From positions 1 through 64,000 of the forward strand of contig CALUZB010000004.1 in the NCBI GenBank assembly GCA_944325195.1: 64,000 bases of DNA. Reading direction: 5' to 3'. A program made the translations under genes and the position numbers. Shown here in pieces: positions 1,220 to 42,001 of this stretch. This stretch comes from an uncultured Desulfovibrionaceae bacterium (lineage in GTDB: Bacteria > Desulfobacterota > Desulfovibrionia > Desulfovibrionales > Desulfovibrionaceae). Positions within the stretch are counted from its first letter, which is position 1. Each line of letters begins with the position of its first letter. The notes under the pieces were generated by a model. It searched no databases and had not been told where the DNA came from. It saw only the letters and a program-made list of their open reading frames with translations.

Positions 1220-2542
1220 TTACGCCCTACCCTTGATTTTTCCTTTTTGCATCAAACCTTCATATTGCCTGGAGATAAGGTAAGACTCAAGCCTACCCAT
1301 AAAATCCATAGCCACCCCAACCATGATCAATAATGAAGTTCCGCCAAAGGTAATAGTCGGACCAAAGAACGATGACAGTATTACCGGCAATACACACACA
1401 GCCGAAATATAAAGCGAACCCCATAAAGTCAACCGCGTGAGCACAGTATTAATATAATCTTTAGTCTTCCCTCCCGGACGGATCCCAGGGATAAAACCAC
1501 CCTGATTTTTTAAATTTTCTGCAATATCTTTTGGGTCGAAAACAATAGCTGTATAAAAGAAACAGAAAAATATGATTAATCCAACAAAGAAAACATTGTA
1601 TAGTATAGTATCATTAGCGCTAAACATAGCGGCTACGTCGTTCAGCCACGGGAAACTACCTGAGAACATTGTCAGGGTGGCAGGGAACAACAATAAACTC
1701 GAAGCAAATATCGGTGGAATAACACCAGCAGTATTCAATCTTAACGGCAAATGAGTGTTCTGCCCCCCCACCATGCGACGCCCCATTAAACGCTTGGCAT
1801 AGTGAATAGGAATTCTGCGTTGCCCACGTTCAACAAATACAATAGCACAGAGTACCGCCGCCATAAACAGGATCAAACCTATTACAATGACGATATTGGT
1901 GCCCTCAGCAACAGCTGTAGTAAAATAACGACTGGTCGCCCCGGGAATGGCTGCCACAATCCCTGCAAAGATAATCAGCGAAATGCCGTTGCCGATTCCT
2001 TTTTCTGTAATTTGTTCGCCAAGCCACATGATCAGGATAGTGCCCGCAACCAAGGTGATTACAGTAACAAGCCGGAAAGTCCAGCCCGGATCAATTACCA
2101 CCCCAACTACACCGGCGGCGGCAGGCATAGTCTCAAGTCCCACAGCCAAGGCAAAACCTTGAATAATGGTAATTAACACTGTGCCGTAGCGGGTGTATTG
2201 AGTAATTTTCTTACGGCCGGCAGCGCCTTCTTCTTTGGCCAAGCGTTTCAATTCAGGACTTACAACCTGCAAAAGCTGCATAATGATCGATGCGGAGATA
2301 TACGGCATAATCCCTAAAGCAAAAATAGAGAAACGCTCAAGCCCTCCGCCTGAGAACATGTTAAACAGCCCCACCAAAGAATTGGAAACTGAATCGAAAA
2401 ACGCCGCCAGTGCCTGCGGATCCACCCCAGGCACAGGAATATGCACCCCTATGCGAAATGCGCCAAGGATTGCAAATGTCCAAAGCAGCTTTTTTCTGAG
2501 TTCAGGCAAACGGCCTATATTTTCAACAGCACCAAGAGCCAC
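1220..2542 (-). CDS. secY: Protein translocase subunit SecY
   Basis: SecY is the channel-forming subunit of the SecYEG translocon in the inner membrane. It has 440 residues and about ten hydrophobic segments. Family signatures include GIMPYISASIIMQLL near residue 80 and FFYTAIVFDPKDIAENLKNQ near residue 330, with the plug region after the first segment. The start is GTG, preceded by AAGGA. It follows rplO closely and abuts map, the usual spc-operon order, which links secretion capacity to ribosome synthesis. Confidence 0.97.
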   Translation of the reverse strand: MALGAVENIGRLPELRKKLLWTFAILGAFRIGVHIPVPGVDPQALAAFFDSVSNSLVGLFNMFSGGGLERFSIFALGIMPYISASIIMQLLQVVSPELKRLAKEEGAAGRKKITQYTRYGTVLITIIQGFALAVGLETMPAAAGVVGVVIDPGWTFRLVTVITLVAGTILIMWLGEQITEKGIGNGISLIIFAGIVAAIPGATSRYFTTAVAEGTNIVIVIGLILFMAAVLCAIVFVERGQRRIPIHYAKRLMGRRMVGGQNTHLPLRLNTAGVIPPIFASSLLLFPATLTMFSGSFPWLNDVAAMFSANDTILYNVFFVGLIIFFCFFYTAIVFDPKDIAENLKNQGGFIPGIRPGGKTKDYINTVLTRLTLWGSLYISAVCVLPVILSSFFGPTITFGGTSLLIMVGVAMDFMGRLESYLISRQYEGLMQKGKIKGRA

Positions 2543-34344: not shown

Positions 34345-35820
<1,476 letters not shown>

Positions 35821-35842
35821 ACAGAAACATCAGGATTAATAA

Positions 35843-37375
35843 ATGCACAACACCGTTCTTATACTCGACTACGGATCGCAACTGACCCAGCTCATCGCAC
35901 GCCGGGTGCGCGAGGCCGGAGTGTACTCTGAAATTCACCCTTGCACCATGCCCACTGCCGATATTCAGGCGCTGGCCCCCAAGGCGATTATCCTCTCCGG
36001 CGGCCCAGCGTCGGTTCTGGAGCCGGGAGCTCCTACCCTGAATAAAGATATTCTGAACATGGGAGTGCCGATTTTCGGTATTTGCTACGGAATGCAACTG
36101 CTGGCCCATAACCTTGGCGGGGAACTGGCTACAGCAAAGAACCGGGAATATGGGCCGGCTGATTTGAAAATTACGAAACAGACCCTGCTCTGGCAAAATC
36201 TGCCCGCCGACTCCACTGTGTGGATGTCGCATGGTGACAGAGTGGCGGCCATGCCCACAGGTTTTGAGGCCATTGCTTCCACCGCTGATCTGGATATTGC
36301 GGCTATGGCGGACGAGCAGCGCAAAATTTACGGCGTGCAGTTCCACCCGGAAGTGCATCATACTGCGCACGGTACAGCCATATTGCGCAATTTTCTGTTC
36401 CAGGTGGCGGGAATAACCCCTGACTGGACGATGTCGTCATTCATTGAAGAAACAACCGAACGGGTGCGTCGTCAGGTCGGCGACAGCAACGTGGTGCTGG
36501 CCCTTTCCGGCGGGGTGGACTCAACTGTAGTGGCGGCCATGTTGCATCGGGCCATTGGCGGGCAACTGTACTGCATTTTTGTTGATCACGGCCTGCTTCG
36601 TCTGAACGAAGCTGAAACGGTGATGGACAATGCGGCCAAATACATGCCCGGCCTGAACCTGAAAATGGTTGACGCCTCCCAACGCTTCCTGGCTGGTTTG
36701 AAAGGAGTTACCGACCCGGAAGAGAAGCGGAAAATTATCGGTCGCTTGTTTATTGAAGTTTTCGAGGAAGAAGCAGGAAAAATATCCAACGTCAAGTTCC
36801 TGGCCCAAGGTACAATCTATCCCGATGTGATCGAATCCTTTGCCCCGCAAGGCACGGTGATTAAAAGCCACCACAATGTAGGCGGTTTGCCGGAGCGGAT
36901 GCACCTGGAGCTGGTTGAACCCTTGCGCGAGCTGTTCAAAGATGAAGTGCGCGCGGTAGGGCATGAGCTCGGCCTGCCCGACTCGCTGATCTGGCGGCAC
37001 CCCTTCCCGGGCCCCGGTCTGGGCGTGCGCATTCTCGGAGAGGTTACGGCCGAACGGGTGCAGGTGTTGCAGCAGGCGGACAATATTCTGATAGAAGAAC
37101 TGAGAGACTCCGGCTGGTACTCCAAGGTCTGGCAGGCTTTGGTGGTTTTGCTGCCGGTGAAGTCCGTGGGCGTAATGGGCGACGCGCGCACTTATGAAAA
37201 TGCCGTTGCCTTGCGGGTGGTGAATTCAGTGGACGCCATGACCGCCGATTGGTCGCGCTTGCCCGATGACCTGCTGGCCCGCATCTCCACCCGAATCATC
37301 AATGAAGTGCAAGGGGTGAACCGCGTGGTTTACGACATTTCGTCAAAGCCGCCCAGCACTATCGAGTGGGAATAA
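35843..37375 (+). CDS. guaA: GMP synthase (glutamine-hydrolysing)
   Basis: Converts XMP to GMP with ATP and glutamine. It has 510 residues. The glutaminase domain starts [16 protein letters not shown] and has the Cys nucleophile in [10 protein letters not shown], with HPEVHHT carrying the His. The ATP-pyrophosphatase domain has the PP-loop [10 protein letters not shown] near residue 221, and the C-terminal dimerisation domain ends with [12 protein letters not shown] terminator follows 7 nt after the stop. Confidence 0.97.
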
Positions 37376-37381
37376 GCAGAT

Positions 37382-37425
37382 AACTCCCGATGCCTGGAAC
37401 TGTAAGGGCGATCGGGAGTTATTTT
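37382..37425 (+). terminator. Rho-independent terminator of guaBA
   Basis: AACTCCCGAT and ATCGGGAGTT form a perfect 10-bp stem with a 19-nt loop, followed by ATTTT. It closes the guaB-guaA unit and separates it from the beta-lactamase gene. Confidence 0.8.
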
Positions 37426-37504
37426 GCAATTGAACATCGGCGTCACATTGAATAAAGTAATCATGAGGCGCTCAAAAGTCATCATTGGGCGTCCAGGTGA
37501 AATC

Positions 37505-38488
37505 ATGCCGGTCAGACTGGTTGTGATCCTCACGCTTTTGTTGTACTGCGCCGTTTCAGGCGGCAATTACGCACAGACGGATATTACTGCTGTGCTCACG
37601 GGGGACAGCCCCGCGGCGATGTCTGCCGGAACAGAAAAAGCATATTACGGCCAGTCCGAAACTGTCTGTGATCTCCAAGTTACGGAAGTGGATTGGTCCG
37701 ACTATTTTGACGGTCTGACAGGCGCGGCTGTTTTTTACAACCCCTCCGCCAAAGTAATGACCGTGTTTAACCCGGAACTGGCAAATACACGCAGGTCGCC
37801 CTGCTCAACTTTTAAAATCGTTTCGGCTTTAATCGGGTTAGAGCAGGGCGTCATACCGATGAAATATTCCACGCGGGTATGGAGTGGGGAAATTTTCTGG
37901 AATGCGGCATGGAACAGGGATATTGATTTTCACGACGCTTTCCGGACATCGTGCGTCTGGTATTTCCGGGCCGTAGCTGATGAGCTGGGGAAAGAACGGA
38001 TCCGGTTGGAATTAAACCGACTGCAATACGGCAATGCCGACATTTCCGATTGGGCGGGACAGCTCAATACCAATGATGACAATCCCGCCCTGACCGGATT
38101 TTGGATTGAATCTTCTTTGCAGATTTCACCTGCAGAGCAAGTTCTGGTAATGGAGCGTATTTTCGGAGAGAACACGATTTACCGTCAAGCGACTATTGAG
38201 CAACTCAGGAATGCCATGCGGCTGCCGGACTTGCATATCAATGGTTGGAACGTTTTCGGGAAAACGGGAATGGGAAAGTCAGCCGACACTGCGGTTGACG
38301 CTTGGTATACCGGCTTTGCAGAGGCATCTGATGAAAGGGTTTACTTCTGTGTGTACCTGGGGCAAACAGCAGAGGCGGAAATATCCAGCATCAAAGCAAG
38401 GGAAATCGCAATTCAGCTTATTGCGGACAACGCTTTACCCGCCGCGCTGTCGGCGTCCGCATTCAGTAAAAACGGGGCAGCCAACTAA
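37505..38488 (+). CDS. Class D (OXA-type) beta-lactamase
   Basis: A serine beta-lactamase that hydrolyses beta-lactams in the periplasm. The chosen ATG has AGGTGA 5 nt upstream and gives 327 residues with a signal peptide of about 23. All class D motifs are present: S101-T-F-K104 (active Ser and carbamylated Lys), S149-C-V151, Y175-G-N, W200-I-E-S-S-L-Q-I-S, and K253-T-G. The mature N-terminal segment, about 40 residues before the core, is longer than usual. The spectrum cannot be told. It lies between guaA and the tat genes, apparently inserted. It is not a BlaR-type sensor, as no other domain is present. Confidence 0.9.
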   Translation: MPVRLVVILTLLLYCAVSGGNYAQTDITAVLTGDSPAAMSAGTEKAYYGQSETVCDLQVTEVDWSDYFDGLTGAAVFYNPSAKVMTVFNPELANTRRSPCSTFKIVSALIGLEQGVIPMKYSTRVWSGEIFWNAAWNRDIDFHDAFRTSCVWYFRAVADELGKERIRLELNRLQYGNADISDWAGQLNTNDDNPALTGFWIESSLQISPAEQVLVMERIFGENTIYRQATIEQLRNAMRLPDLHINGWNVFGKTGMGKSADTAVDAWYTGFAEASDERVYFCVYLGQTAEAEISSIKAREIAIQLIADNALPAALSASAFSKNGAAN

Positions 38489-38531
38489 AAGACTGATTAC
38501 CCATTAAACGATAGCTTACTGGAGGGTTGAT

Positions 38532-39155
38532 ATGAAAATCTTTCTTATCCTGTTCGGGCTTGCAGCACTGCTGGGTATTCTGTTTTTTTACGGCTGTGTC
38601 CGAAGCAGCGCCCCCACCCTGAGTCTTAATAATAAACCTGCCGGAAAAGTCCTGGTGGTGTATTATTCGCAATCACCCAATCAAAACACAAAAATTGTCG
38701 CGGAATGGATTCACCAGCAAGTTGGCGGGGATATCTTTGAAATTGAAATGGTGACGCCATATTCCGACAGCTATCGACAGGTGCTTGAAGAATCAAAACG
38801 TGACAACGCCGCCGGCATCAAGCCGGAAATCAAACCTTTCAAGCAAGACCCCGCTGATTACGACATTATCTTTATAGGCTCTCCGGTTTGGTACGGAACC
38901 TACGCGCCGCCGGTGGGAAGTTTTCTGGCATCTACCGATTGGAGCGGTAAAATCATCGTTCCTTTCTGTACTCATGGCGGAGGCGGGGCCGGGACACTTT
39001 ATGCCGACATGGCCGCAGCCTGCCCCAAGGCAACAATGCTTGAAGGCCTGGCCGCGCGGGGAAGCAACGTTGTGGAGCGGGTGCTGAGACGCAGCACTGC
39101 ACACAAAGAATCGCCGGATCTGGTAATTGCTTGGCTAAACCGGATCCTTGAGTAG
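38532..39155 (+). CDS. Membrane-anchored flavodoxin-like protein
   Basis: A 207-residue flavodoxin-fold protein. Residues 1-22 are hydrophobic and end FFYGC, so it is either a lipoprotein or membrane-anchored with the flavin domain outside the cytoplasm. The FMN-binding start is KVLVVYYSQSPNQNTKIVAE and the 90s loop region is IIFIGSPVWYGTYAPPVGSF, near residues 111-130; these are typical of flavodoxin_4-type proteins. ACTGGAGGGTTG precedes the ATG. It follows the beta-lactamase by 43 nt and may be coexpressed with it. Redox partner unknown. Confidence 0.8.
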   Translation: MKIFLILFGLAALLGILFFYGCVRSSAPTLSLNNKPAGKVLVVYYSQSPNQNTKIVAEWIHQQVGGDIFEIEMVTPYSDSYRQVLEESKRDNAAGIKPEIKPFKQDPADYDIIFIGSPVWYGTYAPPVGSFLASTDWSGKIIVPFCTHGGGGAGTLYADMAAACPKATMLEGLAARGSNVVERVLRRSTAHKESPDLVIAWLNRILE

Positions 39156-39305
39156 CCGGGTTTACAGCCCGGAGCAGACCAGGTTTTCAAATTGTGCGCT
39201 ATGCTTTACAGGCGGGTGCTGCCATGTTGCAACCTGTTTGCAGGATTACTGAGCGCTTTTGTGGGATCGCGCTTTAATTTCAGCGGTTCATAAAGGCCTC
39301 CCAGT

Positions 39306-39337
39306 GCCGGGCCATCACCCGGCCCGGCGGCAACGCC
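39306..39337 (+). promoter_or_regulatory. Two overlapping alternative hairpins
   Basis: GCCGGGCC-ATCACCC-GGCCCGGC is a perfect 8-bp stem. Its right arm overlaps a second stem, GGCG-GCAA-CGCC, closed by a GNRA tetraloop. The two cannot form together. It may terminate the beta-lactamase/flavodoxin transcript or be a repeated extragenic palindrome. Confidence 0.45.
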
Positions 39338-39380
39338 GCCATGAACAGCTGAGACTCATACTTCTCAACGAAGTGTATCC

Positions 39381-39412
39381 TTAATAATCGTCCGCAAGAC
39401 GATTTATATAAT
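39381..39412 (+). promoter_or_regulatory. Candidate tatB promoter with dyad in the spacer
   Basis: TATAAT, a perfect -10, is at 39407-39412. The dyad AATCGTC-N5-GACGATT (39386-39404) lies just before it. With a 20-bp spacer the -35 would be TTAATA (39381-39386, four of six consensus bases). A long spacer with an inner dyad is the plan of MerR-family promoters. No MerR gene is nearby; this is inference. Confidence 0.4.
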
Positions 39413-39474
39413 GAGTTGTAGTGAGGGCCGGCCCTTAAGGGACATGGCGTAATTCGCCCGACGTGGAGTTATCT

Positions 39475-39708
39475 ATGTTTGAAATCGGCGGTTTGGAAGT
39501 ATTGGTAATTGCCATTGTGGCCCTGGTTGTACTGGGGCCGGAAAAACTGCCTCACGCCGCCGCCAAAACCGCTCGGGCCATTCACACGCTGCGACGGGCC
39601 TGGATCAACTTTCAACGCCAGCTCTTCATTGAAACTTCCCAGGAAGAGCAGGATAAGAATGCTGATACTTGCGTATCCTCACCGAAAGAAGAAGAAAAAG
39701 GTGAATAG
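39475..39708 (+). CDS. tatB: Twin-arginine translocation protein TatB (TatA/B family)
   Basis: Part of the Tat export system for folded proteins. It has 77 residues, beginning MFEIGGLEVLVIAIVALVVL with one membrane segment, then GPEKLP and an amphipathic helix, then a short acidic tail. The Glu-8 and the sequence resemble TatB more than TatA. The ATG is 4 codons inside the open frame; GTGGAGTTATCT precedes it. tatC follows after 2 nt, as a TatBC pair; tatA may be elsewhere. Confidence 0.88.
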   Translation: MFEIGGLEVLVIAIVALVVLGPEKLPHAAAKTARAIHTLRRAWINFQRQLFIETSQEEQDKNADTCVSSPKEEEKGE

Positions 39709-39710
39709 GC

Positions 39711-40571
39711 ATGGATACGAATACCCCAAAAACAGAAGGCCGGACCGTTCAGCTCCACCCGTCCGCCGGAGCGGCCGAAACTACACACCAAGCCGAACAA
39801 CGCCAACGGGGAAATACTCCAGACAACCAACTGTCCCACAAACCGGACGGAAACTCGGAGACTGGTCTGCTCGAGCATTTACGCGAACTGAGACTCCGTC
39901 TGATCCGCTGCCTGCTGGTTTGGGCGCTGCTGTTTCTGGTTTGCTGGGCATTTGACAGGGAACTCGCCCAAATCATTCTGGCCCCCCTGCAAACCGCTCT
40001 GGCCCATTCCGGCGGCAGACTGATCACCATAACCCTGCCGGAAGGTTTTTTAGCCTATCTGAATATCTCCCTGATCGCCGCCCTGTTCTTAAGTTCACCC
40101 TACCTGTTTTACCAGGCTTGGGCTTTTGCATATCCCGGCCTGAAAAAAGGAGAGAGGAAAATAATCAGCCGTCTGGCCCTCGGATCTGCCGGTTTGTTTT
40201 GTCTGGGAGCCCTGTTCGCCTACTTTATCATCTTTCCAGCCGCCTTCACCTTTTTCATTGATTACGCCAGAGACGCCGCCGCCCCCGAACCCTCCTTGCG
40301 CTTTTACCTCAATCTGGCCCTGAATACACTGCTGGCTTTCGGATTTGTGTTTCAATTGCCGCTGGCCATTTTCTTTTTAACCAAACTGGGGGTGGTTACC
40401 CCGGCCGGGCTGAAACGCAATCGTAAATATGCCGTTCTGGGGGCGTTCATAGTCGGGGCAGTTCTCACTCCTCCCGACCCCATTTCCCAGGTTTTGATGG
40501 CCCTGCCCCTGATCGGGCTTTACGAACTGAGCGCGTTTATCTGCAAACGCATAGTGAGGACAGCAGAATAA
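39711..40571 (+). CDS. tatC: Sec-independent protein translocase TatC
   Basis: TatC is the signal-peptide receptor of the Tat pathway in the inner membrane. It has 286 residues: a hydrophilic N-terminal extension of about 55, then LLEHLRELRLRLIRCLLVWA, the TatC start, and six membrane segments. The family sequences FLSSPYLFYQAWAFAYPGLK and GFVFQLPLAIFFLTKLGVVT are present. The extension is longer than usual; an internal start is possible but no ATG lies close to the conserved region. Confidence 0.94.
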   Translation: MDTNTPKTEGRTVQLHPSAGAAETTHQAEQRQRGNTPDNQLSHKPDGNSETGLLEHLRELRLRLIRCLLVWALLFLVCWAFDRELAQIILAPLQTALAHSGGRLITITLPEGFLAYLNISLIAALFLSSPYLFYQAWAFAYPGLKKGERKIISRLALGSAGLFCLGALFAYFIIFPAAFTFFIDYARDAAAPEPSLRFYLNLALNTLLAFGFVFQLPLAIFFLTKLGVVTPAGLKRNRKYAVLGAFIVGAVLTPPDPISQVLMALPLIGLYELSAFICKRIVRTAE

Positions 40572-40760
40572 ACCAATTTATACAAAGGCGAAGCTCCAAT
40601 AACCCCTTTTCTTTTTTTCAGAAAACGGATATTTCTATAATCTTTGAGCCAACTACTGAAAAAGAACTGACCGTCAGGGTACAAGCGGAACAGATTATCT
40701 GAATTCAACAGAATACAGCCTGTCAAAATGCACACTGCACACTTTGAACAAGGAGAGCCA

Positions 40761-41357
40761 ATGCGCCAGGGAAGCATTACCCGGAACACTACAGAAACAC
40801 AAATCAAAGTGGTTATCGGGCTTGATCCCAATCCGGAAACCGGCCCTGAAATTGCGGTCAGAACCGGTTATGGCATGGCTGATCATATGCTGCACCTGAT
40901 CGCCTTTTGGGCCGGCTTTGATCTCACCCTCACCTGCAACGGCGATTTACATATAGATGCTCACCACAGTCTGGAAGATTCCGGGTTCTGCCTGGGTAAA
41001 GCTCTGTTGGCGGCCTTGGGCGACCGCAAAGGAATCAGACGGGTGGGAAACGCCAAAGTGCCGATGGATGAAGCCCTGGCCGAGGTGAATATCGATATTT
41101 CCGGGCGCCCCTACCTGGTTTATCGAGGCGCTGAGCTGCTGCCTCCAATGCTTGGCGGCGAGGAAGCGGATTTATGGCGTGAATTTTTCAGGGCTTTCTC
41201 AACTGCCGCACAAATGAATTTACACATCGAATACCACTACGGACTAAACGGTCATCACCTGATCGAATCCGCCTGCAAAGGGCTTGGCCTTGCTTTAAAG
41301 CAGGCTACTGCCGTGGCGGGCACAGCCATTCTAAGTACCAAAGGGAGCCTCGACTAA
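40761..41357 (+). CDS. hisB: Imidazoleglycerol-phosphate dehydratase
   Basis: Dehydrates imidazole glycerol phosphate, step six of histidine synthesis. It has 198 residues and only the dehydratase domain, not the phosphatase fusion of E. coli. The metal-binding His motifs are seen: [22 protein letters not shown] and [19 protein letters not shown] lies 5 nt before the chosen ATG; an upstream in-frame ATG 11 codons earlier is less likely. Its stop overlaps the next ATG by one base. Confidence 0.95.
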
Positions 41358-42001
41358 TGCGTAAACTTCTTTTCTTGTTGTCCTTAATTTTTTTGCTGAG
41401 CCTCAATTTTGCCTGTTCCAGCGCTAAGAAACAACCGCCGGCTGCTCCGCTGCCGGATGTATCCATTGCAGTGGCCTGGTTCAACCAACCGCGCAGTATG
41501 GACGATTTGCTTGCCGGGGTAATGATTTCTGAACAGGCTTTTGTGGGTGACAAGGTGCTGATGAACCTGGACGCCGAATTGCAAAAAGTGCTGGCGGAAG
41601 AGTCTAAACGCGCTTTCATCAATATTGCCGGCTCATATACCTGCCAGGTGAAAGCTGAAAAAGTGGAGAAAACCGGCAGAACCGCTCTGGATTACTGGGT
41701 AGCGGTGGGGGCCTGCCTTGATGCGGATATGATTCTGGTACCGCAGCTCACAGAGTGGCGCAACCTGGAAGGATCGGCCATGGGGGCTGAAACGCCCTCT
41801 TCTGTGACTATGGATTTCTACCTGATTGATGTGAAACGCGCTCAACTGGTGAACCGTTACCACTTTGAGGAAACACAGCAAAGCCTGACCGATAATTTGC
41901 TGAATATCGATAAGTTCTTCAACCGGCACGGCAAATGGCTGACCGCCGATGAACTGGCCGCTGAGGGGATGCGCCAAGCTGTGCAGGAGCTTGGGTTATG
42001 A
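41357..42001 (+). CDS. Lipoprotein-like protein of unknown function between hisB and hisA
   Basis: A 214-residue protein with a signal peptide [20 protein letters not shown]; the Cys at 20 is a probable lipidation site, though the lipobox is not perfect. The rest has alternating strands and helices, with [18 protein letters not shown] and [20 protein letters not shown]. This resembles outer-membrane-associated lipoproteins that compute or hold a complex, but I cannot name a family. Start and stop overlap hisB and hisA (TAATG, ATGA), so it is translated with the histidine genes. A role in histidine synthesis is unlikely. Confidence 0.75.

Follow-up and report, generated by a model that had tools for sequence, protein, structure and literature searches.

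A CDD-like class D beta-lactamase gene of putative clostridial origin and an apparently relocated flavodoxin gene inserted between guaA and tatB in a member of the Desulfovibrionaceae

The analyzed stretch of DNA (the window) comprises the first 64,000 nucleotides of contig CALUZB010000004.1 from an uncultured Desulfovibrionaceae bacterium (GCA_944325195.1). This contig has a size of 736 kb and belongs to a genome sequence of 27 contigs that is 98% complete with a contamination of 0.15%. As an earlier note on this DNA had described, a class D beta-lactamase gene (bla) and a gene coding for a membrane-anchored Flavodoxin_4 protein (fld) are located between guaA and tatB (Table 1). All genes from guaB to tatC lie on one strand, with 43 bp between bla and fld and a gap of 319 bp between fld and tatB. 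The reading frame of bla begins at TTG 37424. Its likely start is ATG 37505, as judged from the AGGTG situated 5 bases upstream and the hydrophobic stretch MPVRLVVILTLLLYCAVSGG that starts at this codon. The start codon of fld (ATG 38532) is preceded, again 5 bases upstream, by GGAGGG. The terminator that had been proposed for guaA fits an inverted repeat with arms of 12 bp each (37380–37391 and 37411–37422); the site-pattern scan, which takes loops of 3–8, does not contain this repeat in its list. The pattern scan detected no promoter-like site upstream of bla and no terminator-like site in the gap between bla and fld, the counts being near those of shuffled sequence; bla and fld are probably transcribed together.

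Table 1. Genes and other features at the guaA–tatB junction (positions refer to the window).
Feature	Position	Strand	Remarks
guaB	34360–35820	+	two genes left of bla
guaA	35843–37375	+	left neighbor; guaA of G035 86% identical
Inverted repeat 3' of guaA, probable terminator	37380–37422	+	perfect 12-bp arms; role inferred
bla, CDD-type class D beta-lactamase, putative signal peptide	37505–38488	+	327 aa
fld, membrane-anchored Flavodoxin_4 protein	38532–39155	+	Pfam and model
Copy of dispersed palindromic repeat, ~125 bp ("alternative hairpins")	39304–39426	+	genome repeat search
tatB	39475–39708	+	right neighbor; NCBIfam TIGR01410 above cut-off
tatC	39711–40571	+	profile matches

Relative to G035, the only congener compared, the window species carries an insertion of ~2 kb between guaA and tatB, the spacing of these genes being 136 bp in G035 and 2099 bp in the window genome. 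The gene order guaB-guaA-tatB-tatC-hisB-lipoprotein-hisA is uninterrupted in G035 (the order of hisB, the lipoprotein gene, and hisA was compared in this genome alone). The best guaA matches among 116 other genomes with a match provided 28 further loci of the family, one of which had just 123 bp downstream of guaA, leaving 27 to be scored. In 24 of these, tatC was located at most 1.5 kb from guaA, which was not the case in the remaining three. Neither bla nor fld was found at the guaA junction in any of the 27 loci or in G035, and the proposed insertion into a conserved gene order was thus confirmed. No exact borders of the insert emerged: its right end aligned to the gap of G035 with a score of 19, which is no better than shuffled sequence (95th percentile 22), and the left end scored 23, a value obtained without a shuffled control. 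The 8-bp sequence GGAGTTAT, which occurs as a direct repeat at 37415–37422 and 39465–39472, was rejected as a target-site duplication, since such a repeat is at chance level (~0.6 expected by a hand estimate) and its copies overlap an arm of the probable terminator and the probable tatB ribosome-binding site. The same two sites cause a 10-bp inverted pair at 37378–37387 and 39465–39474. Among flanking repeats and tRNA genes, no element that would explain a transfer was found; the window was devoid of tRNA genes, and a search of positions 35000–42000 against Rfam returned no match at E ≤ 1.

The alternative hairpins that had been seen to the right of fld are present and belong to a dispersed repeat, whose consensus of 20 copies is ~125 bp long and, by eye, contains nested palindromes. 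A repeat model built from six copies, including the one right of fld, obtained 34 hits at E ≤ 0.1 in the window genome (30 at E ≤ 0.002; 150 candidates scored). With 150 candidates per genome, it obtained few and weak hits in three relatives, namely three in G035 (best E 4.8e-4), two in G011 (best 6.2e-5), and two in G001 (best 0.07). Further copies in the window genome are found, for example, in the loci L132, L140, L142, and L143, ~1500 bases from each locus end. In G035, the surroundings of guaA and of the fld counterpart contained no copy that stood out (best E 0.21). A single-sequence fold of the region right of fld yielded a z of −3.58. A structured RNA was nevertheless rejected, and the hairpins were treated as a palindromic DNA repeat, because the alignment of the six copies contained only seven consensus pairs and had a covariation term of +0.61. 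The repeat may be a marker of rearranged DNA.

The product of bla was assigned to the Transpeptidase family by Pfam. Its top solved relatives identified by phmmer were class D structures of Clostridioides difficile (CDD-1, E 5.8e-63), and a Foldseek search with the predicted model (pLDDT ≥ 90 in 225 of 327 residues, with low confidence at both ends only) also ranked CDD-1 first (7kep; E 9.1e-28, 42% identity, target TM 0.91). The motifs STFK, SCV, YGN, FW, and KTG are all present, so that bla has the combination of S-x-x-K, S-x-V, Y-G-N, K-T-G, and class D fold that characterizes class D homologues. Like CDD-1 and CDD-2 (described in the available text of PMC6299217), it carries a cysteine before the catalytic serine and an S-C-V motif, but it differs from these enzymes in its identity of 42–43%, its occurrence in another phylum, and its signal region. 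None of the class D cut-offs among the 25 NCBIfam families listed was reached by bla. As its score for NF033866 (blaCDD) was 224.8 bits at a curated cut-off of 600, the protein is regarded as CDD-like and not as blaCDD. The earlier description of an OXA-type enzyme with every catalytic motif therefore holds for the motifs, whereas the label OXA is loose because bla groups with CDD-1 and Clostridia-type proteins.

BlaR1 and MecR1 sensors have an S-x-N motif with asparagine, together with a membrane protease domain at the N-terminus. In contrast, bla contains SCV and consists of 327 residues with one short N-terminal hydrophobic stretch; the BlaR1-like row L029 of the alignment carries the asparagine at the position where bla has valine. 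According to its title, structure 3uy6 is the BlaR1 variant N439V, and the same position has thus been studied by others. That bla is a beta-lactam-binding or other penicillin-recognizing protein and not a working beta-lactamase is unlikely on balance. Such a role would agree with the class D cut-offs not being reached, with the BlaR1 sensor domains being near neighbors in sequence and fold, and with the statement in the accessible part of PMC9045261 that conserved class D motifs do not guarantee activity, the same source listing CDD enzymes among homologues with low activity or a different function. It is at odds, however, with the valine in S-x-V, with the lack of a BlaR1-type membrane domain within the 327 residues, and with the closest solved relative CDD-1 being an efficient enzyme (PMC6299217, as far as its text was available). 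By analogy, bla as a working enzyme would most likely act in the periplasm and hydrolyze penicillins and similar beta-lactams, with Ser101 being acylated by the beta-lactam, Lys104 serving as the carbamylated base, and the hydrolyzed product being released, and it may confer resistance to such compounds.

Both proteins look exported, as had been noted earlier: bla has a putative signal peptide that would direct its export, and the predicted model of fld has an N-terminal helix (residues 2–23). A strict lipobox is found upstream of the catalytic domain in 19 of 26 Clostridia-type relatives of bla, and several of the remaining seven show near-matches or are truncated at the end. In bla, no lipobox of the pattern [LVI][ASTVIMFG][GAS]C was found before STFK. 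Since the strict lipobox is absent, a soluble enzyme in the periplasm would fit and be the simplest assumption for bla, given the Gram-negative envelope expected from the family.

The origin of bla was addressed by a pattern-based, non-exhaustive scan of genome contigs, which covers 84,980 species by the description of the tool. It yielded 29 loci with relatives of bla, 27 of which have identities of 48–60% and stem from records of Lachnospiraceae, other Clostridia, or without a group name. In a tree of 51 rows, from which six copies of the window gene (L065, L045, L001, L080, L075, L094) and two partial rows (L028, L030) had been left out, bla formed a group with 26 Clostridia-type proteins (100/99) that was joined next by CDD-1 (100/99). 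Its affiliation with the CDD/Lachnospiraceae group is thus found at both nodes. The identity of bla to the 26 Clostridia-type proteins is 50–60%, the highest value noted in the tree being 61%, and signatures such as GNxDISDWxG and VDAWYTGF are common to bla and these relatives. The tree has no outside root and no settled branching order inside the Clostridia-type group, and the rows L081 and L084 from the window's own phylum were placed on the same side as the bla group at a weak midpoint split. In a sample of the own family, class D-like matches occurred in 25 of 118 other genomes. These homologues share the class D motifs with bla but have identities of 28–38% (42% for one short piece), and those placed in the tree fell outside the CDD group. 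The corresponding phylum sample contained class D matches, many of them short, in 57 of 394 other genomes. Among 288 family genomes searched (205 of them ≥90% complete and ≤5% contaminated), only two others matched bla at E ≤ 1e-30, both with 34–35% identity. Literature searches among open-licence papers, at the level of their listings, turned up no CDD-like enzyme for this family.

Codon scores were calculated against 33 window genes and gave a z of −2.5 for bla. The signal is weak because secY of the same window (1220–2542) is more unusual, with the lowest codon score and, at 45.6%, the lowest GC content among the 33 genes measured. Of the flanking repeats and shifts in codon use that had been suggested for inspection, shifted codon use was seen in bla; fld has normal codon use (z −0.85), and the 8-bp repeat is at chance level. 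A mobile vector for bla was rejected, as the 4711 matching plasmid records (top 34.9%) and the eight matching phage records (top 32.0%) were all below 60% identity, and none of the five stretches of viral contigs that fit the bla pattern encodes a relative. The best reading of these data is that bla would have been gained by horizontal transfer across phyla from a Clostridia lineage of Lachnospiraceae type, a direction suggested by the distribution of the relatives and not by a rooted tree. Since the nearest relative is just 61% identical, the donor would be unsampled or the transfer old, and an intermediate host may have stood between the Clostridia and the window species.

A different history is suggested for fld, which was identified as Flavodoxin_4 (PF12682) with 74 bits at a gathering cut-off of 24 (E 1.2e-20) and has 3KLB and 4ICI as nearest solved relatives. 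Its phosphate-binding loop SQSPNQNT (38667–38690) has two residues more than the loops of 18 other family relatives, which aligned with 36–50% identity. The congener G035 alone has the same two extra residues in a copy that is 72% identical and has the anchor and the tail in common with fld. FYGC in fld fails the lipobox pattern, and its Gly-Cys is kept in G035. In G035, the flavodoxin gene adjoins proB and is convergent with a polyprenyl synthetase gene. The proB of the window genome is 89% identical to that of G035 with ~200 bp downstream also conserved, and no flavodoxin was detected after it (best match E 0.62). Because fld lies beside proB in G035 and is missing from the proB locus here, the gene is judged from these comparisons to be native to the genus and to have changed its place. 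Among the fld relatives fetched from other genomes, none had guaA or tatC within ~1.5 kb, and the 94 matching plasmid records were all below 60% identity (best six of 94 at 36–38%). ApbE-flavinylated members of Flavodoxin_4 have a flavinylated Ser/Thr motif. By eye, no ApbE-type Ser/Thr motif was recognized in fld, and just two extra residues are present in the loop after strand 1, where flavinylated members have an insertion according to the part of PMC11334425 that was available. Domain, fold, and N-terminal anchor of fld are like those of the extracytosolic Flavodoxin_4 proteins treated there and of 3KLB and 4ICI. The protein most likely would bind FMN non-covalently and pass electrons to some periplasmic partner.

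The earlier note had singled out the pairing of a beta-lactamase with an extracytoplasmic flavodoxin. The 29 loci that carry relatives of bla were examined by tblastn and a profile search, the latter of which recovered three true flavodoxins as positive controls. No flavodoxin was found in their flanks of 0.1–6 kb per side, and none was present near a further 22 class D homologues from the phylum (flanks up to 1.5 kb). Since no flavodoxin was seen in the flanks of the 29 loci, the combination appears, as far as seen, to be local to the window species. A special bond between the genes was not upheld, fld being normal in codon use and located elsewhere in the congener. Apart from adjacency, the only thread that might link the flavodoxin to bla is a pair of cysteines: Cys100, just before Ser101, and Cys150 in S-C-V flank the active-site motifs as in CDD-1. 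According to its title, structure 7rl8 shows the C. difficile enzyme with the substitution C79A, and to go by a title naming K83A, C79 would correspond to the position of Cys100. In some other class D enzymes, whose cysteines are at different positions, activity drops without DsbA (PMC8863373, available text). It is highly improbable that bla and fld form one functional unit in which the anchored flavodoxin maintains or restores the redox state of Cys100 and Cys150, resulting in a redox-gated beta-lactamase made up of a foreign enzyme and a native electron carrier.

Taken together, the interval probably represents an addition of ~2 kb from two sources at the guaA–tatB junction, consisting of a bla gene derived from Clostridia and a relocated fld gene of the genus itself. 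The location of both genes on the same strand, 43 bp apart, and their common absence from the junction in G035 would also be compatible with their arrival as one cassette that was already paired in the donor. This scenario is very unlikely, however, considering the flavodoxin-free flanks of the 29 loci, the normal codon use of fld, and its 72% identity to the G035 protein compared with 36–50% for the other family relatives aligned. For bla and fld as old core genes of the junction that were lost in relatives, no supporting point was found. With neither gene at the junction in G035 or the 27 further family loci, and with no CDD-type bla found in the other 287 family genomes searched, this alternative has almost nothing to recommend it. 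The condition under which the earlier note would have called them core genes did not apply, since no examined relative carried both at this place and codon use is shifted in bla (in secY more so). The fragmentation of the genome sequence into 27 contigs could hint at a foreign gene placed here by contamination or misassembly, an explanation that is scarcely credible since the genes are situated inside a 736-kb contig with family-typical neighbors on both sides, are next to a repeat with many copies in the window genome and to a flavodoxin belonging to the genus, and are part of an assembly with a contamination of 0.15%.

In a survey of class D homologues, little taxonomic mixing was observed within clusters (PMC9045261, in the text available). 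A Clostridia-type enzyme in the chromosome of another phylum, devoid of the lipoprotein signal that most of its relatives have, would be an example of a change of phylum and probably of cell-envelope type. If active, bla would widen the host range of CDD-like enzymes. The locus is worth recording as a likely cross-phylum acquisition and does not constitute a new kind of system. The search against class D families that had been recommended in the earlier note gave CDD-1 as best solved relative.

Some further observations concern the window organism. The genus name Desulfovibrio, with which the earlier note had associated the gua-tat-his gene order, was not confirmed. In the 98%-complete window genome, a search for dsrA returned nothing at E ≤ 0.001, while of 14 control genomes, 8 had a match below the cut-off of the same search; if the absence is right, the window organism is not an ordinary sulfate reducer. 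Besides fld, five flavodoxin-like matches are present in the window genome, of which one (L073:16509–17000; contig C4, 80521–80955) is interrupted by two stop codons and is probably a decayed paralogue. In another region of the genome (L071:8208–10234, contig C26), a sulfatase-modifying-factor domain is fused to Flavodoxin_4, and the gene adjoins that of a DUF4405 membrane protein. According to the accessible part of PMC11334425, DUF4405 and flavinylated Flavodoxin_4 occur together in apbE clusters.
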